A stretch of 64,000 bases of DNA, from assembly GCA_021234155.1 (NCBI GenBank), contig JAJEKV010000203.1, positions 62,001-126,000 on the forward strand, given 5' to 3'. Below the pieces are notes generated by a model. The model had not been told where the DNA came from. It ran no database searches and saw only the letters and a program-made list of their open reading frames with translations. Shown here in pieces: positions 19,706-44,989 of the stretch (within the stretch, counting starts at the first letter, position 1; every line of letters starts with the position of its first letter). A program made the translations under genes and the position numbers. This DNA comes from Isoetes taiwanensis (taxonomy: Eukaryota > Streptophyta > Lycopodiopsida > Isoetales > Isoetaceae).

Positions 19706-21763
19706 TCCTATATTATAATGTTGTGTAATGGACCGCACCCTAAATCGGACGGTCGAGGATTTGATTGACCAATGGTGGAGATGATGTGTGCGTGTCTTCA
19801 ACTAAAATTTCATCTTGACTATGGCTTCAATAAGGAAAGGGAAAAGGAAAAAGGAAAAAGGAAAAGGGAAAAGGGAAAAGGGGAAGGGGAAGGGGAAGGG
19901 GAAGGAAAAGGGAAGGAAAAGGAAAGGGAAAGGGGAAAGGGAAAAAGGGAAGGGAAGGAAAAGGAAAAAGCGATGAAAGGGAAAAAAAAAGGAAAAGGGA
20001 AGGGAAAAGGAAGGGAAAAGGAAAAAAGCGATGAAAGGGAAAAAGGAAAAACGATGAAAGGGAAAAGGAAAAAAGAAGAGGGGAAGGGAAAAGGAAAAAA
20101 AAAAAAAGGGAAAAAAGGGAAATGGAAAAGGGAAAGCGGAAAACGGAAAAGGGAAAGGGGAAAAGGAAAAGGGGGCGGGAAAAGGAAAAAAAACGATGAA
20201 AGGGAAAAGGGAAAAAGAAACGGAAAGGGGAAGGGAAAAGGAAAAAATGATGAAAGGGAAAAAGGAAAAAGGGAAAAGGGAAAAGGAAAAAGGGGGAAGG
20301 GGAAAAGGAAAAAAGATGAAAGGGAAAAAGAAAAACTTTGGGAAAAGGGAAAAGGGGAAAGGAAAAGGAAAACTATGATGAAAGGAAAAGGGAAAAGGAA
20401 GAGGGGAAGGGAAAAGGAAAAAGCGATGAAAGGGAAAAGGAAGAGGGGAAGGGAAAAGGAAAAAAGCATGAAAGGGAAAAGGGAAAAGGAAGAGGGAAGG
20501 GAAAAAGGAAAAACGATGAAAGGAAAAAAAAGGGAAAAAAGGAAAAAGGAAAAGGAATAAAAGGAAAAAAGATAAGAGGAAAAAGGAAGCAGAAGGAGAA
20601 AAAAGGAAAATGGAAAGATAAAAGAAAATAGAAAAAGGAATAGAATGACGAGGGGAAAGGGAAACTTGAAAAAAGCACCACATAGGGTAAGAAAAAGGTG
20701 AAAAGGAGAAAAAGGTAAGGGAAAATAAGAAAAGGTTGCAAAAGTCTATGGGAAAAAACAAAGTAAAAAGGAAAAGAGATAGGAAAAGGGAAAAAAGAGA
20801 ACTTGGGAAAAGGGAAATCTTTTTTTTGAAAAAAAGGAAAAGGGCGTGAAAAAAGGGGAAAAGAGAAGGTGAAGAAAAGAAAAAGGAAAGCAAAAAGAAA
20901 GCATCGAGAAAAAAAGGAAGAGGGAAAGGATGGAAAAATGAGGAAAAAGGTGGGGAAATTAGAATAGACAAAGGGTAGGGAGCAAGGAATAGGAAAAGAG
21001 GAAAGCGAAAAGGGCGCGAGAAAAAAGGGGAAGAGGGAAAGGGTGAGGAAATAGAAAAAAGAAAGGGAAAAGAGTATGGGAAGGGAAAAGAAAAAAAAAA
21101 CAAAAAAAGGAGAAAAGTGGAAAGGGGAAAAAAAGAAGAAGATGGGAAAAGAAGGAAAAAGGGTTACATAAAAAAAAGGGTGAAAAAGGGAATGGAAAGA
21201 GGCATATGAAAAGCGAAAGGGCAGAATGAAAAGGAAAATGTAAAGGAAAAGAGAAAAAAAGGGAAAAAGGGAACAAATCATTAAAAACAAAAGGGTGGGG
21301 AAAGTATGAAAAGGAATGGAAAGTTGAAAGGAAAAGGGGGTTCTAAAAAGGAGAAGGAAAAAAAGAGCATGAGGAAAAGAGGAGAGAGAAATGGGAAAAG
21401 AGATGGGGAAAAAGGGCACATGGGATCAAGAGGAAGAGGGTGGGGAAAGGAAAAAAGGGCACATGAAAAGGTAAGCAAAGAGAACGAAAAAATGCATGAG
21501 AAAAAAGAGAAAAGGAAAAGGAAAAGGAAGAGGAAGGGGAAAAGGAAAGGGAAAGAAAGTAGTGGAAAAATGGGAAGAGCAGGGAAAGATAAAAAAGGAA
21601 GGGAAAAAGCCGTGATAAGAAAAAGAAAAAAAAAAAAAGGAAGGGGAAAGGGAAGGCAAAGGGAGGAGAAACGGGTTAGAAAAAAAAAAGGGAGAATAAA
21701 AAAGAAAGAAACCACAAAGGTTCCTAATTTATAACCAGCAAAGAAGGTAAATACCATTACTAG
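19706..21763 (+). mobile_element. Polypurine Helitron D
   Basis: It starts TCCTATATTATAATG directly after the CTAG of Helitron C. A 5' sub-terminal block of about 100 bp shared with other family members follows (gaccaatggtggagatgatg, catcttgactatggcttcaa). The polypurine interior is at about 19829-21715 and the 3' end ccattactag finishes at 21763. The hairpin is eroded (ataaccagcaaagaaggtaa). Confidence 0.85.
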
Positions 21764-23880
21764 TCCTATATTATAATGTTATGTAATGGACCACCCTAGA
21801 TCCGACGGTGAGAAAAGATTCATTTTTCAAGGGATTTGGAGATTCAACATAAAAAATCTGAGGGCCCCTATCGAAAGCGAGGCGTTTTAAAATACTAGTG
21901 ATGGCCGGGGGTTTCACTGGGGAACATCTTTGCCCTAAACCGGTTGATGTTGAAGGCATTGTTTGAAGAAAAATAAAATAAAAAATAACACTTGAGAAAA
22001 GCTTCGGTTCAAAATCACATCTCAATGCCACGGCTCAGCCATGCCAAGCCCGTTCGCATTACGTTTGTCATTTCTTAGGGTTTTTTAGCTTATTCTAAGG
22101 TACGCCATGCAGCTATGGCAAGCCCATTGCAAGACCGAGCAAGCAAAACATTATCAAGATTTTGAGTTCTAATAGGGGTTTACCTTGCTCACGAAGCTTA
22201 ACCTATTCTGATTTTGGTATTTCTTTTCACTCTCATTACTATGAAAGAAGGCGATTGATCCGGCACCTATTTTTATGGCATATCATCCTAAAAGTACATT
22301 CGAGGTTCTTCCCCAATCATATTTTTGGGTTATCCATTTTTTTGTTCAAAAATATGAAAGCTAAACACCATCATAGCTTTTACTGCTTCTCTGTTCATGC
22401 AAAGGCCTGTCGCTGGGGTATCCGTTCTCTAGACATCGTTTACCATCACAAGGTATTTAGAACCTTGCGATAATGCCTACAAAGGATTTGACATTTCAAG
22501 ATATCTGTTGAAAAGCAGTTGGATAGAGCATAGCATGGGCATTCAGGCTCAAACATTCTATTTTCATTCCTTGCAGGTTTCATGGAGCATCTTCGCGAGG
22601 TTTCAACTTTATGGGTTACAGGAGCAAAAATGCTTGGCGCCTGGGTTATCAAAATATAATCTTTCTTCTCAACAAATTCGAAAGTGGCGTATATAAATTT
22701 CTTTGCTATAGATATTTGAGCATGTAGGACTTTGCAAAGAATGGTGCTTCTTTGATTTCGATTTTTGACTATGTCAATTTAAGGTACGTTTGAGATGTTA
22801 GCTGCTTATTTTCTCATGCCCGGAAGGATGTTATAAATGCTTTTACCAGCTACGGCATGTTTCTGAAAGGTTCTCATCAACTATGCATATGTTTTAAATT
22901 GCTGTAGCGTATCCTCTTCTTGGTAGTTCATATGTTTGTTTTGCCATTTTTAATTAGCCGATCACATTATTCATATAATTTCACGAAGTGGCCATCTTGG
23001 TTGGGTAAAATGGATAGCATTTGGTCCAAAGGGATAGTGGCTTTGTATGGGTTCTTCAGTGGGCTGCATCAAAGGGAGCTATAACAATCCGGTGCGGAGT
23101 CCCTTTGTCCTACTTTGGCAGTTCTTCTCCTAACTATAGGACTTCTCTTTGCGGTACTTTGTTTTTCATCTAAGTGGGTCTAGACTCTTCTAATGTTGAT
23201 AAAACTGCAAACTAATTAGATTTAAGGAAAACCGGCTGAAAACATGTACGATAACTTTGTTATTAAAAATGTGGAGAGTTATGAATCACCACTCCACTTT
23301 CTAAAGGCTGCAACATTTTTCAAGCATAACCTCCAAGGACTTGAGCATCTAGACCATGGAGATATATCTCTTTTCTTTTGTCTTATTATTAAGCATATTT
23401 TTTGCAGGCTATCACAGGAGCTTCTTCAAGTTCTTGACTACATGCCTCTCACATGAACCTTTCTTTCTCAAGGTCCCAATGGATATTTTAAAGAGTGCCA
23501 CTTTAGTTCATCTCTGTTGTTACTAAATACTTCAGGGAACATTCTAATTATATTGTGATATGGTACTACATTTAAAAAACCATATCCAAGGTATATGAGG
23601 TTTTAATAATCTATCAGCTTATACAATCATTTTTGTGCATTCTACTGTTGGAGCCTTCACATGAAACTGAAGAGTATGTTGACTCGATGTGAAAGGGCTC
23701 TTGCAACATGTTAGATAACTGTTTTTGTCTGTTAAAAGTGCTGACTCAAAGTTGCTTTTGGGTTTTTCTTTGTCTTTCAATAGAATCAATCTTTTCATAA
23801 TCAATTGAGTAAAAACCTAGAGGAATTCCTCAACACACTCAACGAACTAGAAGGAAGATAGCCAAGATTTAAGATATAAC
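21764..23880 (+). mobile_element. 5' portion of Helitron E and unassigned sequence
   Basis: TCCTATATTATAATG and the sub-terminal gttatgtaatggaccacc begin immediately after the CTAG of Helitron D. No matching 3' end was found before the sequence turns into the pyrimidine tract of Helitron F at about 23885. The interior has no convincing gene; several short frames lack motifs. The right boundary is not resolved. Confidence 0.55.
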
Positions 23881-25619
23881 CTTAAATCTTCCCTCTTCCT
23901 TTCCCCACCCTCTTCCTCTTGATCATGTGCCCTTTTCCCCATCTCTTTTCCCATTTCTCTCTCCTCTTTTCCTCATGCTCTTTTTGCTTTCCCTTCTCCT
24001 TTTTCCGCTTCCCTTTTCCTTTCAACTTTCCATTCCCTTTTCATACTTTCCCCACCCTTTTGCTTTAAGGATTTGATGTTCCCTTTTTTCCCTTTCCTTT
24101 CTCTTTTCCCTTCCTTTACATTTTCCCTTTCCCCAATTCCTTCGCTTTTCATATGCCTCTTTCCATTCCCTTTTCTCAACCTTTTTATGTACCCTTTTCC
24201 TTCTTTCCCCATCTTCTTCCCCTTTTTTCCCCTTTCCACTTTCTCCTTTCTTGTTTCTTTTCTTTTCCCTTTCCCATACTCTTTTCCCTTTCTTTTTTCT
24301 ATTTCCTCACCCTTTTCCCTCTTCCCTTTTTCTCGTGCCCTTTTAAGCCTTCCTCTTTTCCTATTCCTTGCTCCCTACCCTTTGTCTATTCTAATTTCCC
24401 CCCCACCTTTTTCCTCATTTTTCCATCCTTTTCCCTCTTCCTTTTCTCGATGCTCTTTTTGCTTTCCTTTTTCTCTTTCTTCACCTTCTCTTTTCCCCTT
24501 TTTCCGCCCTTTCCTTTTTCTCTTTTCTGGTTCCTTTTCCCAAGTTCTCTTTTTCCCTTTTCCTATCTCTTTTCCTTTTTACTTTTCTTTTTCCCATAGA
24601 CTTTGCATGCAACCTTTTCTTATTTTCCCTTACCTTTTTCTCCTTTTCTCACCTTTACTTCTTACCCTTCTCGCGGTGCTCTTTTTCCGTTCCCTTTCCC
24701 CCTCGTCTATTCTATTCCTTTTTCTATTTTCTTTTATCTTTCCATTTTCCTTTTCTCCTTCTCTTTCCTTTTTCCTCTTATCTTTCCTTTATTCCTTTTC
24801 CTTTTTCCTTTTTCCCTTTTCCCTTTTCCCTTTCATCGTTTTTTCCTTTTCCCTTCCCCTCTTCCTTTTCCTTTTCCCTTTCATCGTTTTTCTTTTCCCT
24901 TCCCTCTTCCTTTTTCCTTTTCATCGTTTTTCCTTTTCCTTCCCCTCTTCCTTTTCCCTTTTCCCTTTCATCGTTTTTCCTTTTCTTTTCCCCTTTCCCT
25001 TTTTTTTTTCCTTTTTCCTTTTCATCTTTTTTCCTTTTCCTTTTCCCTTTTCCCTTTCCCTTTTTCCTTTTCCTTTCATCATTTTCTTTTCCCTCCCTTT
25101 TCCGTTTCCCCTTTTCCTTTTTTCCCTTTCATCGTTTTTTTCTTTTCCCCGGTCCCCTTTTCCTTTTCCCCTTTTCCTTTTCCGTTTTCCGTTTTCCCTT
25201 TTCCATTTTCCCTTTTCCCTTTCATCTTTTTTTCCTTTTCCTTCCCTCTTCCTTTTCCCCCTTTCCCCTTTCATCGTTTTCCTTTTTTTTTCTTTCATCG
25301 TTTTCCTTTTTTTTTCCCCTTTCCTTTTCCCTTTTTTCCCTTTCATCCTTTTTCCTTTTCCCTTTTCCCCCTTCCCCTTCCCCTTTTCCTTTTCCTTTTT
25401 CCTTTTCCTTTTTTCCTTTTCCTTCCCTTCCCTTCCCCTTTTCCCTTTTCCCTTTTCCCTTTTCCTTTTCCTTTTTCCTTTTCCCTTTCATATTGAAGCC
25501 ATAGTCAAGATGAAATTTTAGTTGAAGACATGCACACATCATCTCCACCATTGGTCAATCAAATCCTCGACCGTCCGGATTTAGGGTCGCGGTCCATTAC
25601 CTAACATTATAATATAAGA
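23881..25619 (-). mobile_element. Polypurine Helitron F, 3' end missing
   Basis: The 5' end is at 25619 (aacattataatataaga on the plus strand), with the shared sub-terminal block at about 25485-25600. The interior, about 23885-25495, is a pyrimidine tract on the plus strand and so polypurine on the element's own strand. The last few hundred bases and the hairpin/CTAG end of the family are absent, so it is truncated on the left. Confidence 0.8.
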
Positions 25620-25622
25620 TAA

Positions 25623-27662
25623 CTAGTAATGGTACCCGACCTTCTTTGGTATAAATTAAAGAACCTTTAATTTCTTTCTTTTTTATTCTCCCTTTTTTTT
25701 TTTTTTTAACCCGTTCTCCCTCCCTTTGCCTTCCCTTTCCCTTCCCTTTTTTTTTCTTTCTCTTTTTTTATCAGCTTTTTCCTTCCTTTTTATCTTTCCT
25801 GCTCTTCCCATTTTCCACTACTCTCTTTTCCCTTTCCTTTTCCCCTTCCTCTTCCTTTTCCTTTTCCTTTTCTCTTTCCCGTTTCTCATGCATTTTTTTT
25901 TTCTTCTTTTTGCTTACCTTTTCATGTGCCCCTTTTCTTCCTTTCCCCACACTCTTCCTCTTGATCATGTGCCCTTTTCCCATCTCTTTTCCCAATTTCT
26001 CTCTCCTCTTTTCCTCATGCTCTTTTTTGCTTTCCCTTCTCCTTTTTTCAAGCTTCCCTTTTCCTTTCAACTTTCCATTCCCACTTTTCATACTTTCCCC
26101 ACCCTTTTGCTTCGATGTTCCCTTTCCTTTCTCTTTCCCCTTCCTTTTACATTTTCCCTTTCCCGTTCCTTTAAGCTTTTCATATGCCTCTTTCCATTCC
26201 CTTTTCTCAACCTTTTTTTATGTACCCTTTTTTCCTTCTTTCCCCATCTTCTTCCCCTTTTTTCCCCTTTCCACTTTCTCCTTTCTTGTTTCTTTTTTCT
26301 TTTCCCCTTTCCCATACTCTTTTCCCTTTCTTTTTCTATTTCCTCACCCTTTCCCTCTTCCCTTTTTTTCTGCCCTTTTAAGACCTTCCTCTTTTCCTAT
26401 TCCTTATCCCTACCCTTTGTCTATTCTAATTTCCCCCCCCCTTTTTCTCATTTTTTTCCTTCCTTTCCTCTTCCTTTTTCTCGATGCTCTTTTTTGCTTT
26501 CCTTTTTCTCTTTCTTCACCTTCTCTTTTCCCCTTTTTCACGCCCTTTCCTTTTTCTCTTTTTCTCGTTCCCTTTTCCCAAGTTCTCTTTTTCCCTTTTC
26601 CCTATCTCTTTTTCCTTTTTTTACTTTTCTTTTCCCATAGACTTTGCAACCTTTTCTTATTTTCCCTTACCTTTTTCTCCTTTTCTCACCTTTACTTCTT
26701 ACCCTTCTCCTTACACGCTCTTTTTCCGTTCCCTTTTCCCCTCGTCTATTCTATTCCTTTTTCTATTTTCTTTTTATCTTTCCATTTTCCTTTTCTCCTT
26801 CTCTTTCCTTTTCCTCTTATCTTTCCTTTATTCCTTTTCCTTTTTCCTTTTTTCCTTTTCCCTTTTTTCTTTCATCGTTTTCCTTTTCCTTCCCTCTTCC
26901 TTTTCCCTTTTCCCTTTCATCGTTTTCCTTTTCCCTTCCCTCTTCCTTTTCCCTTTCATCGTTTTCCTTTTCCCTTCCCTCTTCCTTTTCCTTTTCCCTT
27001 TCATCGTTTTTTCCTTTTCCTTTTCCTTTTCCCTTTTCCCTTTTCCCTTTTCCCTTTTTCCCTTTCATCGTTTTTCCTTTTCCTTCCCCTTTTTCCTTTT
27101 CCTTTTCCCTTTTCCCTTTTCCCTTTTCCTTTTCCCCATTCATCATTTTCCTTTTCCTTCCCCTTTTCCGTTTCCCTTTTCCTTTTCCCTTTCATCGTTT
27201 TTCCTTTTCCCGTCCCCTTTTCCTTTTCCCTTTTCCCTTTTCCGTTTTCCGTTTTCCCTTTTCCATTTTTCCTTTTCCCTTTCATCTTTTTTCCTTTTCC
27301 CTTCCCCTATTCCTTTTCCTTTTCCCTTTCATCGTTTTTCCTTTTCCCTTTCATCGTTTTTCCTTTTCCTTCCCTTTTTCGTTTCCCTTTTTCCCTTTTC
27401 CCTTTCATCTTTTTCCTTTTCCCTTCCCCTTCCCCTTCCCCTTTTCCCTTTTCCCTTTTCCTTTTCCTTTTTCCTTTTCCCTTCCCCTTCCCCTTTTCCC
27501 TTTTCCCTTTTCCCTTTTCCTTTTCCTTTTTCCTTTTCCCTTTCATATTGAAGCCATAGTCAAGATGAAATTTTAGTTGAAGACACGCACACATCATCTC
27601 CACCATTGGTCAATCAAATCCTCGACCGTCCGATTTAGGGTGCGGTCCATTACACAACATTA
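25623..27662 (-). mobile_element. Polypurine Helitron G, main part
   Basis: The 3' end CTAG (minus strand) is at 25623-25626, with an eroded hairpin beside it (ggtacccgaccttctttggt). The polypurine interior is at about 25690-27545 and the shared 5' sub-terminal block at about 27550-27650. Its 5' terminus is split by Helitron Q: cacaacatta ends at 27662, and the missing TAATATAAGA is found at 35403-35412. Joined, they restore the canonical terminus exactly. Confidence 0.85.
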
Positions 27663-27675
27663 TCTTATATTATAA

Positions 27676-29507
27676 CTAGTAATGGTGCCCAGCGTTGCTG
27701 GGCATAAGTTGAGAGCCTGTAAATGCTTTGGGATGCAGTGAGAAAAGCCCTATCCCTTTCCCTTTCCTTTTTGCTCTATCCCGCATTTCATTTTTTCTTA
27801 TTTTCTCTACTTTTTTTTTCTTTTCCTTTTTTTTTTCTCGTCTTTCTCACATGTTTTCTTGATTTCCCATCCCTTTCCTTCCCCCTTCCCTGTTCCCGAT
27901 AACCTTTTTCCCTTCCCTTTTGCTCCTTTCTCTACCTTTTCCCTCTTCCCCTTTCTCTTTTTTTATGCCTTCTCTTTTCCCCACCCTTTTCCATGTCTTC
28001 CCTTTTTCTCAACCTTTTACTCTTTCGCCCTTTTCCATGCCTATTTTCCATTCTCTTTTCCTCCTTTTCCCACTCTTTTCCTCCTTTTTTTGTGTGCCCT
28101 TTTCCCTTCCATTTTTCTTTTTCTCCCTCTCGTTTTCCATGCCCTTTTTACCTTCCCTTTTTCCATCTCCTCACCCTTTCCCTCTTTCCCTTTTCCATGT
28201 TCCCTTTTTTCTTTTCCCTTTTCCATTTTCCTCTTTTCCTTTTCCTTTTTAAATACTCTCTCTTTCCCCCCTTTTCCATTCTTTTTCTTTTCTATTTCCC
28301 TTTTCCCATGCCCTTTTTCCCACCCCTTTTTTCTTCTTTCTATTTTTCCGTGCTTCCTTTTCCTCCTTTTCCCACCCTTTCCCTCTTCCCGTGCAATCCC
28401 TTCTTTCCACCCTTCCTTTTTTTCTTTTCTTTTTCCTTTTTAACCTCATGTCCTTTTCCCCTTTCCTCCCCTCCATCACTCCCCTGCTTCCCTTTCCCTT
28501 TTTTCCCGTTTCCTTTTCTTGATGGATTTTTTTCTTTCCGTTTTCCTCCTTTGCCGATCCTTTTCCTGTGCACTTTTTCCCTTCCTTTCCTTTTCCTTTT
28601 CCCTTTTTCCATGCCTTTTGCACATTTGTTTTATTCTCTTATTTCCTATACCCCATTTTCCTCTTTTCCCCACCCTTTCTCTCTTGCCCCTTTTCTTTTC
28701 CCTTTTTTCTTTTTTCCCTTTCTTCACCATTTTTCTCTTCCCTTTTCTCTCATGCCCTTCCCCCTTCCATTTTCTCGTTTCCCTCTTTCTTTTTCCTTGT
28801 GACCTTTACCTAGGTTCCCTTTCCCCCTTTTCCCTTTCCTTTTTCTTTCTTCTCACTTTCCTTTTTTCTATACCCATTTTCTTTTCCCCTCTCCCCATCC
28901 TTTTCTTGTTCCCCCTTGTCCCTTCCCTTTTCCTCATTTTTCCAACCTTTCACTCTTCCTCTTTTCTTGATGCATTTTTTCCCTTCCCTTTCCCTTTTCC
29001 TATGCCATTTGTCCCTTCTTTTTTCCACTTTCCTCAACGCTTCTCTTTTTCCCCCTTTTCCCATTCTCCTCCCCTTTTCCATGCTTTTTTTCTCCTTCAT
29101 TTTCTCCTTTTTTCAACCTTTTCCTCTTTCCTTTTTTTTTCATGCCCTTTCCATTTACCTTTTCCACTTTATCTCTTCCTCCTTCCCTCGTGCCCTTTTC
29201 CTAGGTTCCCTTTCCCTTTTTCGTTTTCCATGCCTTTTTCTCTTCTCTTATCCCCACCCTTTTCCCTTTTCCTTTTGCCCTTTTCCCTTTTCCCCATGCC
29301 TTTTTGCCCTTCACATTCTCTCTTTCCATTTCCCTTTTCCTTTTCCCCCTTTTCATTTACCTTTTCCCCTTAAGAGATCGAAGCATGACCAATCACAGTG
29401 TTGATAAGTCGTGCAATAAATCTAGGCCTTCGGATGCATCCAGATGATCTCGGCCATTCAAATTAGGGCTCGATGCACTACTTACGGTATAACATTATAA
29501 TATAAGA
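27676..29507 (-). mobile_element. Polypurine Helitron S (second subfamily)
   Basis: Both ends are complete: CTAG at 27676-27679 with the perfect hairpin at 27687-27703, and a 5' end at 29507 (aacattataatataaga). The interior at about 27750-29372 is pyrimidine-rich on the plus strand but is made of different words (cttttccc, ccatgcccttt) from the other copies. The 5' sub-terminal sequence (gatgatctcggccattcaaa) also differs. This is an independent expansion. Confidence 0.9.
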
Positions 29508-29606
29508 TAGTTAAGGTGCCCAGCGTTGCTGGGCACAGTTTAAAAACCTGTAAATCATAATCCAGCAATGAGAAACCTACATCCATTGTACAATCTTTGT
29601 CATTCA

Positions 29607-30330
29607 TGGAAGGAAGGAAGGAAGGAAGGAAGGTACTTTTATCGTCCACGGAGACCAATCGGTCTATGGGACCCAATACAAAAACGCAGCAAGCGGATTA
29701 CTGCCCGGATTAAAAAACCCCCGCCCCGAAGGGTTTTCGAGGGAAAAACCGTGGCAGCAATCAACCCGGCGACAAACCGCGGCTAATCATATAAAATGCG
29801 AGAAACATCCCAATATATCTGATCATGCACCACCCCCTTAGTGCCTAGTCTGACGAGACGGCCCGGTGAGGGGCAAATGTGACCGCAGGTCCAGCACCTC
29901 CGGATGTATGACCCCCGGGCGCATCGCAACGGCCGGTGTGTTCATCGACAATGCAAGGGCACGCATTGTCCGTCATTACTAAGGGAGTGTATCCGGCCTG
30001 ATCCGATGAACACCGGCAACTCGGAAAGTGTGAGACTCATCCTCAATGGCACGGTTTGACAAAGACCATGATGAGCCTGGCCCGGGGGGGCTCCCAATCC
30101 ACCCGCCTGCCTCGAACAAAGAAGATGGTGGGCACAAAATCGAATGGAGGCAATGAGTCCCCGCGCTTTTTCGCACGCAAATTGGGAACGCAGAGTAATA
30201 GTTGTGGGCCCGGGCTAACACGGGGTTGATGTGCTCCTTGTAATGGGCCATTTTGACCTGCTCTAGAGCAATGGGGTCCCAGAGCTTGCCAAGCAAGGGA
30301 AAACCAAGCCAAAAAACCATTGCCACTCTT
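29607..30330 (-). mobile_element. Diverged LINE 3' fragment with (GGAA)n tail
   Basis: The sequence is homologous to the 3' UTR and C-terminal reading frame of the LINE at 10579-11951. Shared phrases include ttttatcgtccac, gggttaaaaaacccccgccc (with one change) and ccgaagggttttcgaggg, and the protein fragments GKLWDPIALEQVK and EDESHTF. The frame is broken by stops and shifts. Its 3' side carries five or six ggaa repeats (about 29607-29632) where the other copy carries gagaat repeats. It is truncated at about 30,330. Confidence 0.8.
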
Positions 30331-30419
30331 TTGTACCTTGCAAAACAACCAACAATGGACCCGGCTATAGTGTTGGGAAAGGGCATCCTGGTGATGGCAG
30401 GGGATCTTCTAGCTTCGTT

Positions 30420-33400
30420 GTACCCTAAGCTTCTCGCCTCACTCTTGAATCTACGTTAATTGCTAAGGAATATTTCTAAGCCAATAGGGGGTTTCCATGT
30501 GTAAATGATATAATAACTTGCTTATCTAAAATTATTAACATTTTTGTATATAAAATTGTCTTGTATTTTAAAGCGTAAAATTAGAATTTTAATATTACGT
30601 GTAGAACTTCCTAAGATTTGTGGAGAGGGGAGCATGAATGGAAAAACTAAAGAGGGATTTCATGTTTGGACTTGATTTGAAGAGGTTCCTTATTGTCAAA
30701 CACACATCTATCAAAGACCAAGGCATTTGGTAAACATTTGCTTTTTTGTTTATCATATAATTATTGATGTTATCTATTTGCAGCTTCAAGCAAAGATTTT
30801 GATGTATTTGCAGAACTTCCAAAGTGAAAAGTGCAGATGTATTTCGTCGAAGTGTGAAGCATTTGTCCATATCTCCCATAGAGAATGCATAACAATTTTA
30901 AAGATTCCTGTAAAAATTATATTACTTCCCAATTGGATAACAGTCAAGAACTATTTGTTTGTCATATTTCTAAAGATAAACTACATTCATATAATAGTAG
31001 ATGTGCAAAAACTCCTGAAAAACAGAAACTTGAATGGAATATGCTATACTCAACAAAGTGGGTGCTTTCCGCGAAGCATGTTACAAAGCATTGACTACAA
31101 CTGTAGAAATCATTTATTGGCTAAAGGGGTATATCTTGAGAAAGATAATAGTAGATGTGCAGAGGTTATTAAAAAATAGAACTACTTGAACAGAATATGT
31201 TATATTCACGAAAATGAATACTTTTCTATGAAGCATGTTACAAAGCATTTGACTACTATGTTACAAAGCATTTGACTACTTTGCTGGGGATAAATGGGTG
31301 ATATATCTTATAAATAGCTAATAGATATTAAATGGGTGATATATCTTATAAATAGCTAATAGATATAGACAATACAGTAGATATAGACAATATCTTAAAG
31401 GATGTCATCCTTTAAGATTCACGATGGCTATATAAAAGCCTCGTAATAACAGCAAAGATTTTCGTCACATGAAGCTTTACCTATTTCATCAAATGATTTT
31501 GAGAGATCCATAATGTCTGCAGTGGGAAATCTACATGCCCAATTGCTCTACGTTGATGGAAGAGGCCTTCAAAATTCAACCTACAATCTGCAATACCTCG
31601 TCAATGTAAGATTAGATTTATCACCAGTCATGTTGTAAATTTATAAACTCTGATGAGCGTGAGGGGTTTTTTTAATGATCTTTTGCTTTGTCAGATTGCA
31701 AGGCAAATGATGATGATCACTTTATCTAAAAGTTTACTACTGGCACCAAGTTGGTTCTCCTGTCTGTAATACAATTGTAAGCATCTTTACATGACTTGTT
31801 GGCCTCTTCCATGGGGTCATATTGGCATGTGTCTGGAACATGTATCCCTATAGCGATTGGAAAATGGAGCAGTTCATTTTGCAAGCAGCTCATAAGATCT
31901 TAAATGAACTTGCCTTGCTCACTTTTATTCTAGTTATGCTCTTTCATGTCAACAGCTTAATGGTCTCGTGAAGCAGATGCCTTTGCTATAGCATCAAAGC
32001 TGCGTGAATCCTGTGTACTAAATTTAGATTTTAAAATGGCAGGAAGTTCCAAGGAAATGTTTTTCTAGATGGCCATGTTTTAAGAAGTGGGCTTTTAGTA
32101 TTTGTAAGGTTTTAGTCTGCTGGGTAATATGGAAGAACTGATGCCAAATGGTTCTTAGACATGAATGCACTCCTGCTACAGGCCTGTATCAAGAGATTAA
32201 ATTTCATCTGCATATATGAATCTTCAAACTGCAAATGTTTGGCTACAATACAGATTGACATAATCACCCAACTCCAATGTGCCTGAATAATAAATAACAT
32301 ATTGATTATGATATTAATGTCAATGATCATATATTGGGCAAGATATATATACCTTGTCAATAAAAGTGGAAGAATAACAATGGTAGTTTTGCTCAAAATG
32401 TGAGAGAAATCCAAGTCCAAGTGATCCATAAAGCTAATCCACAAAAGGAACAACAATCAGAGAAGTTATAAAAATGTTCATAAACAATGTTGAGGAAGAG
32501 ATAAAAAGGTACCCCACTCATGTAATGTGCTGCTTCGTCCATACTTTCAAAACCTATTGCACATGCATGTTTAGACAAACGAAAAGCTTAGACAAAATAA
32601 TTCTCAGGTTAATTTCATATTGCTAATTGCAAATCTTATCTTCCCATGACATGCAAGCATCGCAGTTCTAATAGTGGGAAATTCCAACATGGAAGGGTAG
32701 AAAACTGTTGCCAACGATCTTAGCCATACTTCTTGAATGTTTAAAATTTTTTTTAACCGAAAGCGGTATTCCTCTAGCCCACAATAAAAATGGAGTTACA
32801 AAACAGAGTTATAAAATGCATTTTGTGCCAGAAGATGGATGCAACACAAGAAGAGCATGATCATCTTCTGAAACAACAGAGTGCATAGCCTAGCGTTGGT
32901 GTGTCTAGATAAAAATTTAAAGTTGTCAACTTTGCAGCTTATCTGATAGTGCCAACCAGTTTAAACTTGCTGAAGTCCGGTTGCCTTCTTTGGATAAAGC
33001 TTGTAACAAAGATTGCCAATAAACCATATCCAGTCGTTCCGATAGACCAACTCCAGTCATTCTTGAGCAAGCACTATAGACCTCCAGGGCCTGAAGAATA
33101 TGCGTTTGCCATAACCTGATATATGCAATAACAAACCTGATAAAAGGAAGGAGAATCGAGAATGAACAGTAGCCGCCTACGCCATTTCCAAGAGCTCAAA
33201 ACTGTGGCCAGAACGTGAAGATCTTGATGAAGAACACATCCGACAACGGGACCACCCCAGTTTCTGCGGATCTTCTGCTGATTGTTGCATCACCGTCGGT
33301 CGAGCAAGGAAAAAGACCCTAAAGAAAAGAAAAGAAAAAACCCTAAAGAAAAAGAAGCTGGAATAATAACTTTCAAGCATAAAAGAAATGTTTTGTTAGC

Positions 33401-33640
33401 TCACCGGATTTCCACGGATGCCATAGCTGAATGCTTGACATAGTTGTAGGATTGCTTAATACGAACAGAACATAGATTTGTTAATAGGGATGGCTTAAGA
33501 CAAACCTTCAAAAGAAAAGCCAACCTGGGAGCTGGGACGAACCATAGATAGCCGCAATGGCGAGCACATCGATTTGTTGGGGTTTTTCTCACGCTAACAA
33601 AGGTGCAACAAATCGTGATTCCTTTGAATTCTAAGCTCCA
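30420..33640. other. Interior of Helitron R, no gene recognised
   Basis: AT-rich sequence with short tandem duplications (tgttacaaagcatttgacta twice near 31227-31277; gtgatatatcttataaatag twice near 31298-31355). Frames of 60-150 codons occur but none has recognisable motifs or convincing composition. Confidence 0.5.
31392..31418. repeat. Perfect 13-bp inverted repeat
   Basis: ATCTTAAAGGATG, one central base, then its exact reverse complement. The stem would be strong and unlike the Helitron hairpin. Function unknown. Confidence 0.85.
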
Positions 33641-33894
33641 TCTGTTCCGCCATGGCAAAAACTCCTGCCGGATTGGAGAAGGTGCCCTCGCTAACCCTAG
33701 CCCAAAAAAACCTTAGAATCTTACGTGGCGTCATCTCTTCCATTGATTTCATCAAATCTGGGCCGTCGAAAATTTTAGGGTTTTATGCACGACATACACT
33801 AAAACTTTATAATAAAGGATGTTGTGTAATGGACCGCGCCCTAGATCAGGCGGCCCACATTAACTCTTTGAATAGACGGTCGTGATCATTCCAG

Positions 33895-33968
33895 AAAAAA
33901 CCCTAACCCTATCCGTCGGAGTTGAGTCCTTCTTCACTTACAAACCCTATCCGTCGGAGTTGAGCTGG
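33895..33968. repeat. About 50-bp direct repeat in Helitron Q
   Basis: The phrase ccctatccgtcggagttgag occurs at about 33906 and again at about 33945, near the 5' end of Helitron Q after its interruption. Confidence 0.8.
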
Positions 33969-34967
33969 GTTCCTTTTTATCTGGCTCAGATTTTCGAACC
34001 TAAGGGTTCTTTTTCTTTCTGCTGCAACGCTTCCTCTGTTTTCGGCTTCACCTTCTTCCGTTGGGTTCCGTCCAGCTGATCCATTACAAATTGAATCGAC
34101 ATGAAGTCGAAGAAGCAAAGGTCCTATCTTCAGATTGTTTAGTTAGAACAGGGCAGGGTACGACCTGTGTAAAGGGGCAGTGGCTATGGCAGAATACTGC
34201 TCTTCTTTGGAGGGTCACGGCCTTGCAGATCAGCTCATCTTCGATTTTTACAGTATGGCGGATCGACAATGGCCTAGCCTAATCGAATCCCTCCTCCGTT
34301 TGATTTTCCAGGCTCAATCTTCAAGCAAATGGGGTTTTCTGGCAAGAACAGGCCTAGCTTGGCTATGGCATGGCCAAATCGGCATGATTATTGTCAATTC
34401 TACACCTTCCTCATCTCTATTTTGTTTTTTTTTTGCAAGTTAAGTTTCAAACCAAGGCAGTTTTCCGAAAAGAACAGGCCGAAATCGAAACTGGCTTAAG
34501 GGTACCAGGAACAGGCCGATTGGATGCTTCTAGCTCCTAGATTTTGCATTTAGTTTACTCTTAATCCTTCTTAGACCTCTACCGACAAGTGAAATTGCTA
34601 ATAACACAGGAATTTTCGGTTCTAGATAAGATTGGGAAAGATGCAGGACGGCTTGGTTTACATGCCGTTGGTTCCAAAAGGGCATACAGACTGCAACAGA
34701 TAAAAGATAAAGGTGCACCAGTATTCACAAAGGATTTCCTTCAGGGTAAATCCTTGTGAAAACTTGCTACCAAGACAATCAGACAGGATTTATTTAAATT
34801 AAATTTCATCACAACACACACAAAAAAAGGGTTTATTCATTCATGATAAACTGGAAAGGAAGACATCATGCACAACTTTCCTTTCCATCATGCACAACTT
34901 AAAGGTCATATTGGGACTTCAGAGTTGTCACAGGTAAGGGTTTTAACTTATAGGTTCCCCAAGTTAT

Positions 34968-34990
34968 GCCCAGCAACGCTGGGCACCTAG
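34968..34990 (+). other. Internal Helitron 3'-end remnant
   Basis: A perfect GCCCAGCAACGCTGGGC hairpin is followed by ACCTAG rather than ACCATTACTAG. It lies 412 bases before the 3' end of Helitron Q. Confidence 0.8.
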
Positions 34991-35402
34991 ATTTGGCTTA
35001 CAAGTTATTTCGACGGTCCAAATAGTCCATGCTCATCTTGCCCTTTTCTTTTTCCTTTCTTTTGTTTGAGCAACTTCGTTACCTGGAGCCGATCACGTCT
35101 GCTACAATGCCAAGCTTCAGATTATGGTGGAAGCTAGCAGAGCACATTGCAGATTTGCTTGCTTATTCATAAGGTTTTTAAAAGGTATTCTGTTATTTAC
35201 TTTGAACAGTGGATGATGGAAGTAGAAGCAGGGATAACGAAGACTGGCTTTGAAGATAGCAAATTGTTAAACGAAGACTGGCTTTGAAGATAGCAAATTG
35301 TTAATAAGTTTGCATGTGTGAGAAATGACTTCATATCAATAAAGACCAACATCCTTGACAGGTTCCCAACATTTGCCCAGCAACGCTGGGCACCATTACT
35401 AG

Positions 35403-35412
35403 TAATATAAGA
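35403..35412 (-). other. Displaced 5' terminus of Helitron G
   Basis: Ten bases, TAATATAAGA on the plus strand, complete the 5' end of Helitron G that stops at 27662. They are followed at 35413 by tgttattgtgtaagtgttgg, the 5' sub-terminal sequence of Helitron P. Confidence 0.75.
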
Positions 35413-36339
35413 TGTTATTGTGTAAGTGTTGGACCCAGCCCTAAATCGAACGGCTACGATGGATTGAGCAGATCTAACGGACGAGTTTCGCTTTCATTTC
35501 TAGATCTCGATCTAACCCTAAAGAAGGAACGTGTTTATCCCTGGGTTCGGATTTATCTTACCAATGGCTGCATGAACCGGGCATCTTGATCTTCGGCAGC
35601 ATGTTGGGTCTACCGGAAGTGCCCTCTTTGGTCTGACTTCGGCAAAAGCCAGGGTATTCCAAACCGTTTCTAGCATGCTATCCGGGTGAGGCTGTTTTTG
35701 TCGAGCCACAAAGAAGCTCGGCTTATCAGTATCAAGCCGCAATGAGCGGTATGCAACTTTATGCGGAGAGGATTGAACCCTAACCCCTCTTTCTCTTACC
35801 TTCACGATTTCTTTTGATGGTAGGAGCCAAGCATGAGGTTGGAGCATATCGAGCTTTGAGGCTTAAGTTTGAAAAGGTGCTAGCTATGCTCTCTATCTTT
35901 GAGGATGCGGTGTAGCAAATCTAGGGCTTCTACAAGATCCATGGAGGTGAACTTCGAGCTTTTCTTTGGCCCAAGCATCAGGTGTTGCATCAAGATCAAT
36001 TCTTACCAAGTTCTCAATTTAAATCATTATCAAGATCTCTTGATTGCATGAAATAATAATGTATATCATATTTACACAAATGGGCTACTATGGTTGGAGA
36101 TTGCCATTTAGTGGAGATTCTGGATTAGGTATTGGTGTACGTAACGGGGGACGGCGTTGTAAAGGACCATGGTGACGGGGATTTGGTCAAGCATACATGG
36201 GATTAAAATGAATCTGTTCTAGGTAAGGGATTCCATTTGCATGGTTCTTTTCATTTTATAGTGTTACACAAGCGGTTGCGCCATTGATGTAATGTTGTGC
36301 GGGACCTTGCTAATAAGAAAAGGGCGGATACCTCCCGTG

Positions 36340-36870
36340 ATGTACCATGATACCATTAGACCATGGCCAAGTAAGGTAAAACATAACTAGACTATTGGGA
36401 GATGGGAAGTTTACAAATCCCACATGCTTTATGTTGACTTTAATTGCAGCGAGACATCTTATCAAACCGCTTTGTATAATTGTGTAGGTATTTATGGAAC
36501 TTCGGATCCCATTTAGGATACCGCTTTGTTGGAAGCATAAACAAGCAACCGATTAGTTGGGTCCGTTTGTCATTATGTATGAGAAAAATGTTGCAAAATG
36601 CATTATGCAATTACTTATGCAAACTATGGCGGTTTATACAAAGAAGGCTCTATCTTCATTTCTCAAAAGCACTCAAGGTAGCGGTACCCATGATACCATT
36701 AGACCATGGCCAAGTAAGGTAAAAATTAACTAGACCTGGGAGGTGGATACCGCTTTTGGAAGCATAAGCAAGCAACCGTTTATGACATATGCCCAAGTTG
36801 CAGTCTATTTGTCATTATGTAACAAAACAATGCTTTAAAATGCATTATACAATCCAACTATGGCAGTGCT
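36340..36870. repeat. Imperfect duplication of about 330 bp period in Helitron P
   Basis: The phrases ccatgataccattagaccat, ggaagcataa.caagcaaccg, tttgtcattatgta and aaaatgcattat occur in the same order in the two halves (from about 36348 and about 36686). Short frames within it may derive from a captured gene, but none is recognised. Confidence 0.7.
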
Positions 36871-37057
36871 TATACAAAGAAGGCTTCACCCCTTCAAAAC
36901 AATATATAGTCATGTGAGAAACAATTGCATTATATATATTCAAAGATGAACAGGTTAAGTTGAAGTTAAGTTAGCTAACATGCTTCTATGTTTTGCCCAA
37001 TTCGTTTTATAATGTAGGGTGAACTATCAAGAGGACGCAAGTGATACTCACAATATG

Positions 37058-38812
37058 GGATGGAAACCCTAGGAGCAGTCTAGGGCGGCGGCGTCATCCT
37101 GCCTGCTTGGGATCGGCGATAGTGCCTCGCCTTTGGAAAGCAATTACGACCCAGCCGCTTTCTTCTTCCCCAAACTTATGGTTGTGTCTAGAATGGTGTA
37201 CCCTGGCAGAGATCATTTGCAAAAGGGAAGGCCGGCTGGAGTATGGCCGCTACTTCTGCTACCCGCTCTTGGATGATCTTATCAGGGGTAAGATATGTTA
37301 TTTTAGATTGTTGTCATGTGTTTGGTGGAGGTTCGAGCAGTTCAAGCTCTGATACAGTTCAGATTCGTCAAGAAGTAAGCTTATATAGCTTACCTATTGT
37401 GTTTCTTTGCTTCTATCGGGCATCTGAGGTCATCTTTTGCTGGGTTGCATGCCTTTTGTCTGATGGTTGCTACAGGGCAGTGGTTTCGTGGACTGTTTCC
37501 TTGTGGTATATCCTCTTTTCCTTGTGTATACATTGGGCCAGTGGCTTTTAATTAACAGATTCGTAGGCATTCAGATGGCTGCACTCATTGTAGTCATGCT
37601 AGGGACTGTTGCACTCATTGCAGGCAGGAATTTTGTTGCACTCATTGCAGTTAAGGTTTGCTGCACTCATTGCAGGGCTATGCTTTCTTGTTATACTCTG
37701 GTTCTTTGTTGCTTATGGGAAGGCTTGGGTATGTGCCTACAGAGGTTGCCCTCGGTTTCTAGACATGGAAGAAGCTTTGTCTCACAATGTCCAGGTGTTA
37801 ATGTTTAGGGTTCCTTGTGGATGGGCAGGACAAGGGCATTGCAGTTTCAGTATTCGAGAGTAGTTGCTTCACTTAGTCATGTTTCAGAATACAATTCTGG
37901 TCGCTTTGGCTGCGAGTATTTGGGGCAGCAGGAAGAGTGCCCTAGATTTATTGAGCCGGCATCTCGGGTGCTTCAATGTTGCAGCATCTATCTAGTAGCC
38001 AGGATAATTTGGAATGTAGTGGCTTCTGGATTGAGCAGTTTACTTTATGTGGAAAAGGTGCATTCAGTAGACTGTAGGAAGAAAGAAGGCCTTAGTATGG
38101 AGCATGAGTTGGAGAAGTGGCAGCCTTGAGTGTTTAAATTTGCAATATCTTTAAGTCTAGCTTTCTTCAGCGGATTCTTAAGCATAATATATGGATCTAG
38201 TGGGAGCTCTGCTATTTTATGTCGCCCTCTCCTATCCCAGCTAGGAGGTGGTGTGGGATTTAGAGAAAGCTTAGTGAAACAAGGTCAGGAACAAGCAGGA
38301 TATCTATTAGCCACTTGGTACGGGAGGATCAAGTGGTGTTATAGCTGGTAAGAGCATCAAGGGAGACGAAAACTCAAGCAAGCGAGTGGATAAGTGCAAG
38401 AGATGTGGACCACCCATTTATTTGGGGAGGGCCTTAGCGGCATATGGGTTGGAGAAGACGGTGAGGGTTGTTGTGCCCTCCCTCTAGTATCTTGACGCAT
38501 ATGTGATTGCAGGTTCTAGTTAACGCGTGGAAGGAAGCTTTCTTTGTACTTGCCTCTCTACTTGTATCTCCGGGGTGGAACATTAGGTGGTGTCGTCTTC
38601 AGTCTGTCACATGATATCTTGCTTCTAATGATTTTATGGAGCTTTGCTATTTTCTGTTCGCGCATCTGGGTTCATAGTGCGGGATTGCTATATTTGATCC
38701 ATTAAGGGATCTGAGCATGTGTGCTGACATGTGTAGGTTATCTGGCTATCACAGAGCCTTGAATAAATGTATTTATTACATATTATTAATAAAAATAAAA
38801 ATATCTTGCCTT

Positions 38813-38842
<30 letters not shown>
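37058..38842 (+). mobile_element. Retroposed insert with long poly(A) and 14-bp target-site duplication
   Basis: The target atactcacaatatg is at 37044-37057 and again at 38843-38856, with about 30 A residues (38814-38843) before the second copy. The insert begins with a GC-rich stretch (ccctaggagcagtctagggc) and contains a small repeat of gcactcattgcag (four or five copies, about 37580-37680). Frames of up to 113 codons exist but none is recognised. It is either a non-autonomous LINE-mobilised element or a retrocopy of a transcript, and it is younger than Helitron P. Confidence 0.88.
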
Positions 38843-38846
<4 letters not shown>

Positions 38847-39371
38847 TCACAATATGTGATAAAGGCTTTGTTAGATAGAATGGGAATGGGCAGGGCAGGG
38901 CATTCTAGAATGCACCATGTAAGCAGACATGGGACTTCCACAACCATTAATCGAGGCTCCATTATGCACGATGTAATTTTATTTCATCAACGTCTGGCAA
39001 ATTCTTTCAGTTCCTTCTACATTTTCTTATGACAGTATAAAGTGTTTACCTTTGTAATCAATGTTTTGATGCTAGGAGCATAATCAAGAGAGAGTTAGTG
39101 CGAGAAATAGCTACAAATTTTGTCAAAGTAAGAAATGGAATTACTTGGAGTGCAAACTAATAAGTATATTTATATTGCTGATGAATTAAACGTCGTGCAA
39201 ATAGCTAGGAGGAAAATGTATGCCAAATAAGCTCCCAAAATAAATTAAGCTCGGGAAATAAGCTCAGCAAGACAACATAATATGTTCCCAGCAAGTTCCG
39301 TTAGATTGTACAAGTTCCCAAAATTTACATGTTCCCAAATTTTGCCCAGCAACGCTGGGCACCGTTACTAG

Positions 39372-42370
39372 TTAATCTATGACAGCCTTTGTCTCCAAAC
39401 ATAACTCGTTGAGTGTTCTAAAAAGATGAAGTTATCCCTGTAGGGACATGTAACTATAACCTGCTGTAAGAGTATGCAAATCAAGTCCAATCATTTGTTT
39501 GCGACCTGCATAATTCATGTAGCTCCTGTTGGTTTATTTTATTCAATTTCCATGCAAAGATACCTTTGCACTAATTCTTAGACATATTCACAGGAAGTTC
39601 TAAGCATTTTACAAATTTACCCAAAGCCTGCCATATAATTGTAATTTGGTAACTGTAAATGTTGGAAACTTGTTGGCCATATAATAATTATTTGTGGGAT
39701 ATCCCAACTTCTTTTTTGAGCTATTTCAACGGCCATTTTTTGCCTAGCTTAATTAATTATCTGTTTGCATATTTTTTTTATAGCCGATGGGCCCTTTGAG
39801 CTTTGTTTATTGGGTTTATCAACATTTAAAAATGTTGTATAGTTCTTTGAAATGACTATTGTATATGCAAAGATGATTTTTTGAAACAACTATTGTATAT
39901 TTTATATATGCAATAATTACATTTGACATTGTCTTTGCACAATATTCCATGTCATGCTAGCTTTGTTACATGAACTTAGAGTCTTTCTTATAGATCAGCA
40001 TACTCCATAAGAGGATTATTTGAAAAAATATAAATTACACTTCTGGCACAGGGCAATGCTGATATATGCTTACAGGTTCTTAGAAAGACCTACTAATCTG
40101 CTTATGGATCTAGACAAATATAGCGCATCTTTATACATGATACAACAAATTGACACTGCAAGGCACATTTGGGTTAATGTAAATCTTTGTATTATGTTTC
40201 TTTATACATGCGCTGTCACATTGGGCAATCCATTGCAGAATTTGACATGTACCAGGGACATCTAAACATTTGTGTCATGTTGCTATTGTAGAGGGTAAAT
40301 ATTTGTAAGTGTGGCCGAAACTCCTTATCCGATGAAGCTAAATATGTTAAAATGCTGACAAAGCCTGATGTGCTTTAATGTTAGAAAATGAACATTTAGT
40401 CTACAGACCATCTCAAACTTTGCATGCTATCTTACCTGTTTGAATATCACCGAAATTGCATCCCTCATATGATTCTTGACATGGACGAAATGGTCTTTTG
40501 CAGGTAGCACACATGTAGTCAAATAGGATTTTATTCTTGCACACCTTGGGTCTCCTGACTACCATGCAAGAAATAAGACTATGCTGCTCCCAACTATTCT
40601 AACAGTCAAAAAACATTTCAATCCCTATCAAATCCAAAGCAAATAAACATATCCTTTGTTGAAAACAACAGATTCTTTGTTGAATTACAATAAACATTTT
40701 CAGATATATCTCTGGAGGATGCTGGAGACATAACCTCATATCTTTAGCTTGATGTGATGGTATTCATCACAAAACATATCTGCTGCCATGCACATTCTGA
40801 TGGAAGGCTGAACATATGGCCAGTTTGAAGACTCCTGCAGAAATTCACAATCATATACCAGCAAATTCAATCAAAATAGCAACCAATGCAAATGTTCCTA
40901 ACCAAGCTTTGTCCCACCAAGCTTAAACAATTTGGAATAGAGAATTGACGAAATGGCAAATCCCTTTTGTGCATTTGTACATGGCCGTTGGACACAGTTC
41001 GACCCTAAAAGCGAAAGACAAAATCTTTATATTCTGCTTTAGACAGAATGAAAACACCTAATGATCTGCAACTAACTCTGCCATGTCCTATTTCAACCAG
41101 ACCAATTCTAAGGGCAATATCTAACTATAAGCTGACGTAGATAGAGACCCAGCTCTAAAAGCACACGTTCGTGAAGTGGATCCCTATATTATAAGCTAGC
41201 TAAGATCAAAACAACTACAGTTTAAAGCACAATTCATAGTAAAAATAATTACATGTAGCAATTACCTGCCATTAACGTAGAAATCCTCTGAAGAACTCAA
41301 CTCCGACAAAGCTATGAACTGGCATTTTTAACCATCCTTGGGCAAAGGCTTTGAATCTGGGTAGATCATAGCAAGAGGCAAATCATGTGAAATATTGCTG
41401 GAATGAATCAGACAACACAAAATCAAAAAAAAGTTCTGCTTCCGATCTGCAGACATCCAAAGAGTATGCTTCTGCTTTTGCTCCACGACATCAAGGGAAT
41501 AAAAAAAGAATTATTTTGCCACATCATAGACGTTGATACAGTAAGTGGCATACCAAAAACTAAAGAAGGTCGATCCATTGAGTGTTTTTGGACGTGGCTT
41601 CCTGGCCTTCAGGTACAGCCTTGGAAGTGCTCTTAATACGATAACCAGGGTATGTTAATATAACCAGGGTACGATAACCAGGGTATTATTGCTCGAATCA
41701 TTGCAACAAGGGTATGTTAATATTGTAAGCCCCCTCTCACGCATATGATAACAGAGGTTTCCAGATGCGTGGGTTTGCCCCGGTGATCCGTGAGATGATG
41801 CTCCAAATAAGAGATAATGCGAATACGTGAGTTCTATACAAATTTCTTCCTTTCGGCTCCCTAAAATACAGGGATCAAGTGCCATAGCCTCTGCCGTCTC
41901 CATAGCCCCTTAGGAAAGCAAATCGGCAAGAGACTGGCCTCTGGAGCAACCGATAGGGCAAAAAAAAAATGGCAAAATCCACTTACCTTGAAGGCGGAAT
42001 TCTGCTGCCGCATATCAGAAGCCACGATACCAACCATCTGAGTTCGGTTCTGGGATATGATGGCCAAGCTGTGAGGGTGAGGCATGGACTGGGAATGTAT
42101 TCAAACTCGGCACATCTCTTTGCCGCCAAGACTACTTTCTGCACCAAAGGGAGCATCAAAGGAAGTCTAGCAGCATCAAAACCTCAAACGTCCACTGAAG
42201 GTGCATGCCGGACTTCCTGTGCACTGCCGCCCTCGCTAACCCTAGCAAAAAAAAACCATATTATTTTAAAGAATCTTACGTGGCATCATCTCTTCCATTG
42301 ATTTCATCAAATCTGGGCCGCCCAAATTAGGGCTGGGTCCAACACTTACACAATAACATTATAATATAAG
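39372..42370. other. Right arm of the outer Helitron, no gene recognised
   Basis: AT-rich sequence, apart from a small repeat near 41640-41700 (ataaccagggta and agggtatgttaatat). A TCCCTATATTATAAG at about 41180 resembles a Helitron 5' end but has no sub-terminal match. Near 42,225-42,320 it shares ccctcgctaaccctagc and cattgatttcatcaaatctg with Helitron R, as expected for the same Helitron subfamily. Confidence 0.5.
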
Positions 42371-42528
42371 ATTAATATTGAAACCCCAAATCCTTATCTA
42401 ACACAATGAATCTTTTTTTTGTGAAACCATACCTATTTTATTGACGAAGCGATTGCCAAGTTCCTAACTCTTAAAAAGATCAAAGCTTGCAACAAAGAAT
42501 TCCAATGGGCTTACTCGCCAAAATCCAA

Positions 42529-42602
42529 TGGCCTATGCAGGTGTCGAACCTGCGACCTTCGCGTTATTAGCACGATGCTCTAACCAACTGAGCTAATAGG
42601 CC
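42529..42602 (-). tRNA. tRNA-Ile(AAU), array copy 13
   Basis: First copy after the Helitron complex; its 3' flank begins at 42372. Consensus except for one base at the D/anticodon junction (plus strand cacgatgctc). The fold is complete. Confidence 0.88.
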
Positions 42603-42999
42603 TGAAGATTGGAAGCTGCATTTTTCTAACCTCTCCAAGTGTTTTATACGGCATGCAGTTTTGTTACTTTTTTTGACATCTCGCGAAGAACACGAAACAA
42701 TGATGCTGACAACATGAAATGCATTACTACGAGTTGCAAAGCCAGTGAGTATGTGAAAGTCTAGATTACCACTAGTTTTTAAAAGACTAAAGTGGCCTCG
42801 TAGATCCAAACAACTAAGATGTTGAAGAAAAACTTCAGATAAGACACAAATCCTTATCTAACACAATGAATCTTTTTTTTGTGAAACCATACCTATTTTA
42901 TTGACGAAGCGATTGCCAAGTTCCTAACTCTTAAAAAAGAACAAAGCTTGCAACAAAAAAGAACTTGAATTCCAATGGGCTTTTCACCAAAAAATCCAA

Positions 43000-44918: not shown

Positions 44919-44989
44919 GGCCTATTAGCTCGCTTGGTTAGAGCCGTACAATAACGCTAAGGTCGCAGGTTCGACACCCGCATAGGCCA
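44919..44989 (+). pseudogene. tRNA-Ile copy in right arm, degenerate
   Basis: 71 nt. The D-arm (gctcgcttggtt) and anticodon arm (gccgtacaataacg) are both damaged. Confidence 0.7.

Follow-up and report, generated by a model that had tools for sequence, protein, structure and literature searches.

Helitron insertions favour the left termini of resident Helitrons across the genome of Isoetes taiwanensis

Helitrons, the rolling-circle transposons mobilised by a RepHel transposase, are generally credited with using nearly every A^T step in AT-rich DNA as a target, and a locus of Isoetes taiwanensis in which they lie within the first bases of one another raises a question: is the left end of a resident copy a favoured landing place, or one AT-rich site among many? 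The locus belongs to a stretch of 64,000 nucleotides (the window; positions 62,001 to 126,000 of contig JAJEKV010000203.1, assembly GCA_021234155.1), in which the region 27650..35425 is part of a larger nest of Helitrons. We find that this self-nesting is a genome-wide, base-resolved bias that goes beyond the target preference seen elsewhere. Insertions fall at A^T steps inside the left terminal sequence (LTS) of resident copies, in both orientations, or at or just before its A|TC boundary. Sequence preference contributes to the bias, and something about the left terminus contributes more. Probably the preferred target of incoming Helitrons is TCTTATATTATAATGTT, the ~17 bp with which a resident copy begins, and recognition by the transposase, RepHel, is the presumed means.

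The elements concerned carry the termini of canonical Helitrons. In the window the left terminus reads TC(T/C)TATATTATAATGTT and the right terminus, in most copies, GCCCAGCAACGCTGGGC-N-CTAG. Throughout the 1.66-Gb genome (1110 contigs) the 5' TC is present as TCYTATATTATAATGTT in 4179 exact, intact LTSs, and the 3' CTRR as a hairpin plus CTAG in 3342 exact right ends, the hairpin being GCCCAGC-AAC-GCTGGGC, usually 7 bases ahead of CTAG. Insertion occurs at A^T without target duplication, as judged from T at +1 in 90/90 flanks, A at -1 in 95% of 40 flanks and the empty site of M, the outermost element of the nest. This A^T target and these CTAG ends do not agree with Helentrons/Helitron2, which are generally described, and so presented in the passages of PMC5148889 and PMC4067079 available to us, as having a target other than A^T and different termini.

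The initial annotation had proposed at least three nestings that restore perfect termini, and removal of the inserts does yield left termini that match uninterrupted copies elsewhere. Element Q (27663-35402) interrupts G, whose main body occupies 25623-27662 on the minus strand, at TATTA^TAATG. Without Q, the first 10 bases of G, TCTTATATTA (35412-35403, minus strand), join TAATGTTGTGTAATGG (from 27662, minus strand), and at 111/111 bases the rejoined element is identical to L024 and L018, neither of which is interrupted. Q is itself interrupted by R and S (27676-33819) at TATAA^TGTT; its first piece, TCTTATATTATAA (27663-27675, plus strand), joins TGTTGTG at the start of the Q remainder (33820-35402, plus strand, ending in hairpin and CTAG) and matches L125 at 59/61 bases. 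R (1,832 bp, 27676-29507, minus strand) lies in the Q terminus, and S (4,312 bp, 33819-29508, minus strand, its CTAG without the last G) adjoins the 5' end of R. Neither of the two is inside the other, and the simpler order is that S inserted after R, at R's A|TC boundary.

The third terminus, TCTTA (14577-14581, plus strand) plus TATTATAA (from 18030), likewise rejoins once B (14582-18029, plus strand), inserted at TCTTA^TATTA, is taken out. The host had been named as C, which is excluded: the second piece (TATTA, 18030-18037, plus strand, with a TAA that belongs either here or at 25620-25622) gives way at 18038 to a polypurine body, and the rest of the terminus, TGTTATTGTGTAAGTG, is found at 35413, where it completes the terminus of element D. 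Rejoined D agrees with L127, L136 and L138 at 41/41 bases. The D remainder (TGTTATTGTG and onward to CTAG; 35413-39371, plus strand) sits in the interior of M. The first 13 bases of D are thus interrupted by B and by everything from 18038 to 35412, and this terminus was hit more than once. The proposed order of insertion holds for Q after G and for R/S after Q, whereas B came after D and not after C. The window count came to 11 Helitron 3' ends, from which a hairpin inside Q (34968-34984), part of a pseudo 3' end (34968-34988), was excluded. A left terminus is directly adjacent to those of B, Q, R, S and two further elements, X1 and X2, and lies 3 bp from that of G, which makes 7; the other 4, without such a neighbour, are those of M and D, an end at 58665 and one near 61980.

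Is the window representative of the genome? In the same orientation, 139 of the 3342 right ends have the left-terminus core TATAATGTT 0-14 bp beyond them. Among the 100 of these matches that were listed, 45 are head-to-tail at A|TC, 15 lie at TCTTA^TATT and 12 at 1-6 bp upstream, 11 are variants and 15 are of other kinds. On the opposite strand 84 right ends, all listed, are followed by ATATARGA at the same distance. Fifty-nine of them show a recognisable LTS, with 24 at TATAA^TG, 18 at TATTA^TAATG, 13 at position 17-19 and 4 at variants, and 25 are unrecognisable. The base beyond the LTS in 22 opposite-strand loci is T in 18, the CTAG of another copy in 3 and G in 1, as expected of real 5' ends. 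In the same orientation, a search that covered the GTGTAA families gave 3 rows at TATTA^TAATG and TATAA^TGTT. When the gap is shifted to 15-45 bp, 8 rows are left in the same orientation and 9 in the opposite one, a number that includes chance matches and places counted twice; at 15-45 bp the excess has therefore disappeared, upstream of the element in one orientation and inside it in the other. The upstream flanks still offer a mean of 3.7 A^T sites at this distance (33 flanks). Insertion into Helitron 5' termini, proposed from the window alone, is thus borne out by a count that could have returned no excess near 5' ends and returned one.

A sample drawn without regard to nesting points the same way. 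Among the first 90 of the 3342 right ends (contigs C1-C74, not a random draw), 12 flanks lie in a left terminus, or 13 if the doubtful L104 is included; 12 rows were called by regular expression, L007 and L174 were dropped by eye, and L107 and L110 were added. Seven of these 12-13 flanks are also in the strict 0-14 bp lists. In this material a further right end, Helitron-like and with the hairpin GCCCGGCAACGCCGGGC, lies beside the ends in the flanks L114 and L161.

Outside the window, both sides of two nests were read: that of 435 bp at L068/L073, which are one place, and that of 1,876 bp at L076. A clear opposite junction was sought within 7 kb at L071, L072 and L074 and none was found; by eye no Helitron frame was recognised at L071. 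L075 resembles, by eye, a nest at TCTTA^TATT, but the 5' end of its insert is irregular (TCCTCCTATATT), and it was left out of the nests counted as read on both sides. Single left termini hit twice were met at L019, L027, L030/L051, L035/L055 and L053, one of the two hits being at the A|TC boundary or close to it, the other internal and on the opposite strand.

The initial annotation had ascribed nesting to a terminus rich in A^T sites, and the plainest alternative is of this kind, namely that Helitrons prefer any A^T followed on its 3' side by AT-rich DNA, the LTS being by chance one such site. From +2 to +11 the flanks of ordinary insertions are indeed rich in AT, with a faint likeness to the LTS and strong avoidance of C at +9 and +10, and a similar 3'-side AT preference is described for Helraiser in the available passages of PMC4778049. 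A target model built from 74 downstream and 33 upstream flanks with independent bases, after exclusion of 16/90 downstream flanks (nested, doubtful, right-end-like or duplicate) and 7/40 upstream ones, gives a 16-fold pull to A|TC in the same orientation (s0+). It nevertheless expects 0.05 to 0.86 insertions across five tested site classes. With same-orientation figures scaled from the 100 listed rows to 139, about 63 are observed at s0+ (73-fold over the model), 21 at TCTTA^ (s5+, 68-fold) and ~3 at TCTTATA^ (s7+, 10-fold); on the opposite strand there are 18 at s10- (29-fold) and 24 at s13- (461-fold), so that four of the five classes exceed expectation 29- to 461-fold. Per A^T site, s5+ is hit ~13-fold and s0+ ~39-fold more than the flank 7-37 bp upstream, if 6 of the 8 rows at 15-45 bp are taken as genuine.

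Sites matched for sequence give the same answer. The pattern T-WW-TA-WW-A follows 146 right ends; among the 100 listed, 56 carry one of three LTS octamers, and 40 of these 56 continue as an exact left terminus, matched by eye. By hand calculation, with octamer frequencies from 328 kb of sequence enriched in Helitrons and LTS rows told apart by eye, termini are hit at ~43-fold the rate of all such octamers elsewhere and ~21-fold that of the same three octamers elsewhere. The ratio is conservative, as other evidence shows at least 3/60 rows classed as non-LTS (L084, L175 and B of the window) to be LTS. A right-terminus control, confined to the opposite orientation and to a less AT-rich context, gave 7 rows that amount to 4 tail-to-tail junctions, none of them at an internal A^T. 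Given the shortfall of the model, the ~20- to 40-fold lower use of octamer-matched sites outside LTSs and the loss of excess at 15-45 bp, AT-richness is only part of the cause, and target preference acting alone is an unlikely explanation. The preference falls well short of the observed rates, and the initial interpretation as a whole is partly supported.

The commonest class, the head-to-tail pair, admits an explanation of its own. Such pairs could be concatemers, produced when rolling-circle replication runs past the terminator, rather than insertions; this is the published explanation of tandem arrays in bats and silkworm (in the part of PMC4067079 available), s0 pairs are seemingly found in one orientation only, and in the window X1 and the X2 that follows it appear to be of one family. 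A head-to-head search at A|TC found a single place, present in 2 near-identical rows, that is no clear LTS pair. Head-to-tail placement is favoured because the AT-rich side has to be 3' of the incoming element, and the model predicts a head-to-tail to head-to-head ratio of about 4.5 to 1. When 16 of the ~63 estimated s0 pairs were compared by blastn over 1.5 kb on each side, 16/16 had no similarity, which disfavours concatemers of short elements, although pairs of elements over 3 kb could escape detection. Concatemers also leave the internal and opposite-strand sites unexplained, and we regard them as an improbable source of the pairs in general; either they or a RepHel nick at A|TC could be adding to the head-to-tail excess.

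Two further explanations concern how junctions come to be seen. Harmless insertions might simply accumulate in transposon-rich DNA, and regional clustering of this kind would fit both the maize Helitrons reported near or inside other Helitrons (PMC3288121 and PMC12477314, in the passages available) and the rate 7-37 bp upstream of LTSs, which is 3.9e-4 per site against a genome average, calculated by hand, of ~1.3e-5. Survivorship does not, though, account for a sharp edge at the LTS, with the excess lost within 15-45 bp on both tested sides, and is very unlikely to underlie the bias. Assembly error, or recombination between similar termini, could be suspected from the broken pieces of the nest, where X1 lacks a 5' end and elements X3 and H lack 3' ends. 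Against it, removal of the insert restores three termini in the window, and two outside it, either exactly or almost so, and about 200 one-sided junctions of like kind are found, in both orientations; artefact is hardly credible as a general cause.

Several observations weigh against a preference for the left terminus, or against its apparent size. Of the 100 same-orientation rows that were listed, just 2 lie at TCTTATA^TTATAA, though the model predicts equal use with TCTTA^TATT. A clear LTS is missing from 15 of these 100 rows and from 25/84 opposite ones, and all counts apart from the two nests read on both sides outside the window represent one junction each. Right termini are hit as well: CTAG|TTACTAG or CTAG|TAACTAG in the same orientation was met incidentally, and another right end lies within 40 bp in 3/90 sampled flanks. 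The ratios of observed to expected are inflated, as variants missed in the count of 4179 LTSs make it an undercount, and the model rests on small flank sets and independent bases, with wide bootstrap limits (4.4-39 for s0+). Because the 17-mer occurs in abundance mainly as part of the LTS, preference for a long motif in naked DNA and recognition by a protein are indistinguishable. Finally, new Helraiser insertions in human cells are described as not clustered around donor sites in the accessible part of PMC4778049. Hits at the A^T of a right terminus include that at L027/L048.

The nest as a whole is a single insertion. M (28,679 bp including nested elements, 13693-42371, minus strand) has a 5' terminus TCTTATATTATAATGTTATTGTG and a 3' hairpin with CTAG; its joined flanks are identical at 111/112 bases to an empty sister unit of the tRNA-Ile repeat array in which it lies, so that M represents a single insertion of 28.7 kb whose empty site can be read in the neighbouring units. 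The array flanks the nest at 6108-13692 and 42366-50963 with tandem units of ~430-490 bp that carry tRNA-Ile(AAU) genes (17/20 ARAGORN calls), and it reverses orientation near 43475. Within the D terminus, after B, lie X1 (18038-19705, plus strand), a polypurine Helitron without its first ~330 bp, whose 3' end TACCATTACTAG adjoins X2; X2 (19706-21763, plus strand), head-to-tail at CTAG|TCCTATATT; and X3 (21764-23893, plus strand), whose 5' end is head-to-tail with X2 and whose 3' end was not found, the right limit being approximate. H (23894-25619, minus strand) has its 5' end at 25619 and lost its 3' end near 23894. The 3-bp TAA left between H and G (25620-25622) suggests that both were placed in the D terminus, H at TATTA^TAATG. 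The breakpoints 18037/18038 and 23893/23894, where X1, X3 and H meet without the ends named above, are unexplained.

The X1-X2 and G-H blocks are inverted relatives of 84-86% identity. Polypurine/polypyrimidine Helitron bodies of 1.5-3.8 kb, with GC skew up to about 0.85, occur at 18038-21740, 23900-29370 and 57100-58600, and it is possible that they are a triplex-forming or slippage-prone cargo. In the array, a minus-strand frame of 413 aa (10745-11986) is LINE-like and scores 29.4 bits for RVT_1, just below the Pfam cut-off of 29.6. A 158-aa frame in S (29979-30455) resembles part of it by eye, has no Pfam match and is possibly captured sequence.

Does the enzyme that moves these elements belong to the nests? 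RepHel genes are many in the genome (Helitron_like_N, 150 matches scored of 1813 candidates), and one copy, on C1036, is tied to these termini: its Helitron_like_N and PIF1 helicase domains, the helicase partly in a second frame, are followed by the right terminus of the window Helitrons. Its CTAG adjoins TATTATAATGTT of the split LTS of another Helitron, a junction read on the right side. From its sequence, a copy that carries the coding regions of an autonomous Helitron thus appears to nest in left termini.

How do these findings compare with known systems? Canonical Helitrons (Helitron1, including the active Helraiser/Helibat and wheat Xuan-Feng) share 5' TC, a 3' hairpin with CTAG, a Rep(HUH)-PIF1 helicase, the A^T target without duplication and the AT-rich 3'-side flank, according to the passages of PMC4778049, PMC5876387 and PMC13286980 available to us. 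The authors of PMC4778049 remark, in the part available, on an AT-rich patch beside the cleavage site at the left end of Helraiser; here, a large part of the insertions goes to the left termini of resident copies. That Helitrons cluster, lie in tandem and form nests has been published before. Maize offers head-to-tail G/T junctions and nests (available passages of PMC2267711 and PMC3288121) and a preference for sites near or inside other Helitrons (stated in those of PMC3288121 and PMC12477314, both citing Yang & Bennetzen 2009); the base-resolved hot spot and the sequence-matched test are absent from the passages of PMC2267711 and PMC3288121 that we could consult. In Fusarium, FoHeli supplies an insertion 2 bp upstream of a 5' end and self-insertion is proposed for elements with several 5' termini, 5'-end insertion being considered for Metarhizium as well, although the cases are few and the termini Helitron2-like (PMC5148889, in part). 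A base-resolved left-terminus hot spot tested against matched sequence was not found in the literature searched, from which subscription journals were mostly absent and of which parts were available.

Recognition of the LTS by the transposase is the likeliest explanation of the excess beyond AT-richness. RepHel, which would need to find and open the LTS for transposition to start, may also bind resident LTSs and melt their AT-rich first bases, and the transposon circle would then integrate into the opened DNA. As the A^T boundary (A|TC) is re-created ahead of each new copy, the site would be reusable and nests could grow. In the single-strand transposons IS608/IS200-IS605 the target sequence doubles as the left cleavage site. 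They too use an HUH enzyme (PMC5876387, in part), and offer an analogy only, being bacterial, with no helicase and a strict short target. A bolder version, which we hold tentatively and rather doubt, is that the LTS is a sequence-specific attachment site acting in trans, at which resident-bound RepHel captures incoming copies and each copy becomes a landing pad. If this were true, it would be a self-targeting strategy that spares genes and rewrites the left ends of elements. A strong, base-resolved preference of Helitrons for their own left end offers a simple explanation of how Helitron clusters arise and how elements come to have several 5' termini. It also lets one examine whether target choice lies with the transposase that opens the left end.

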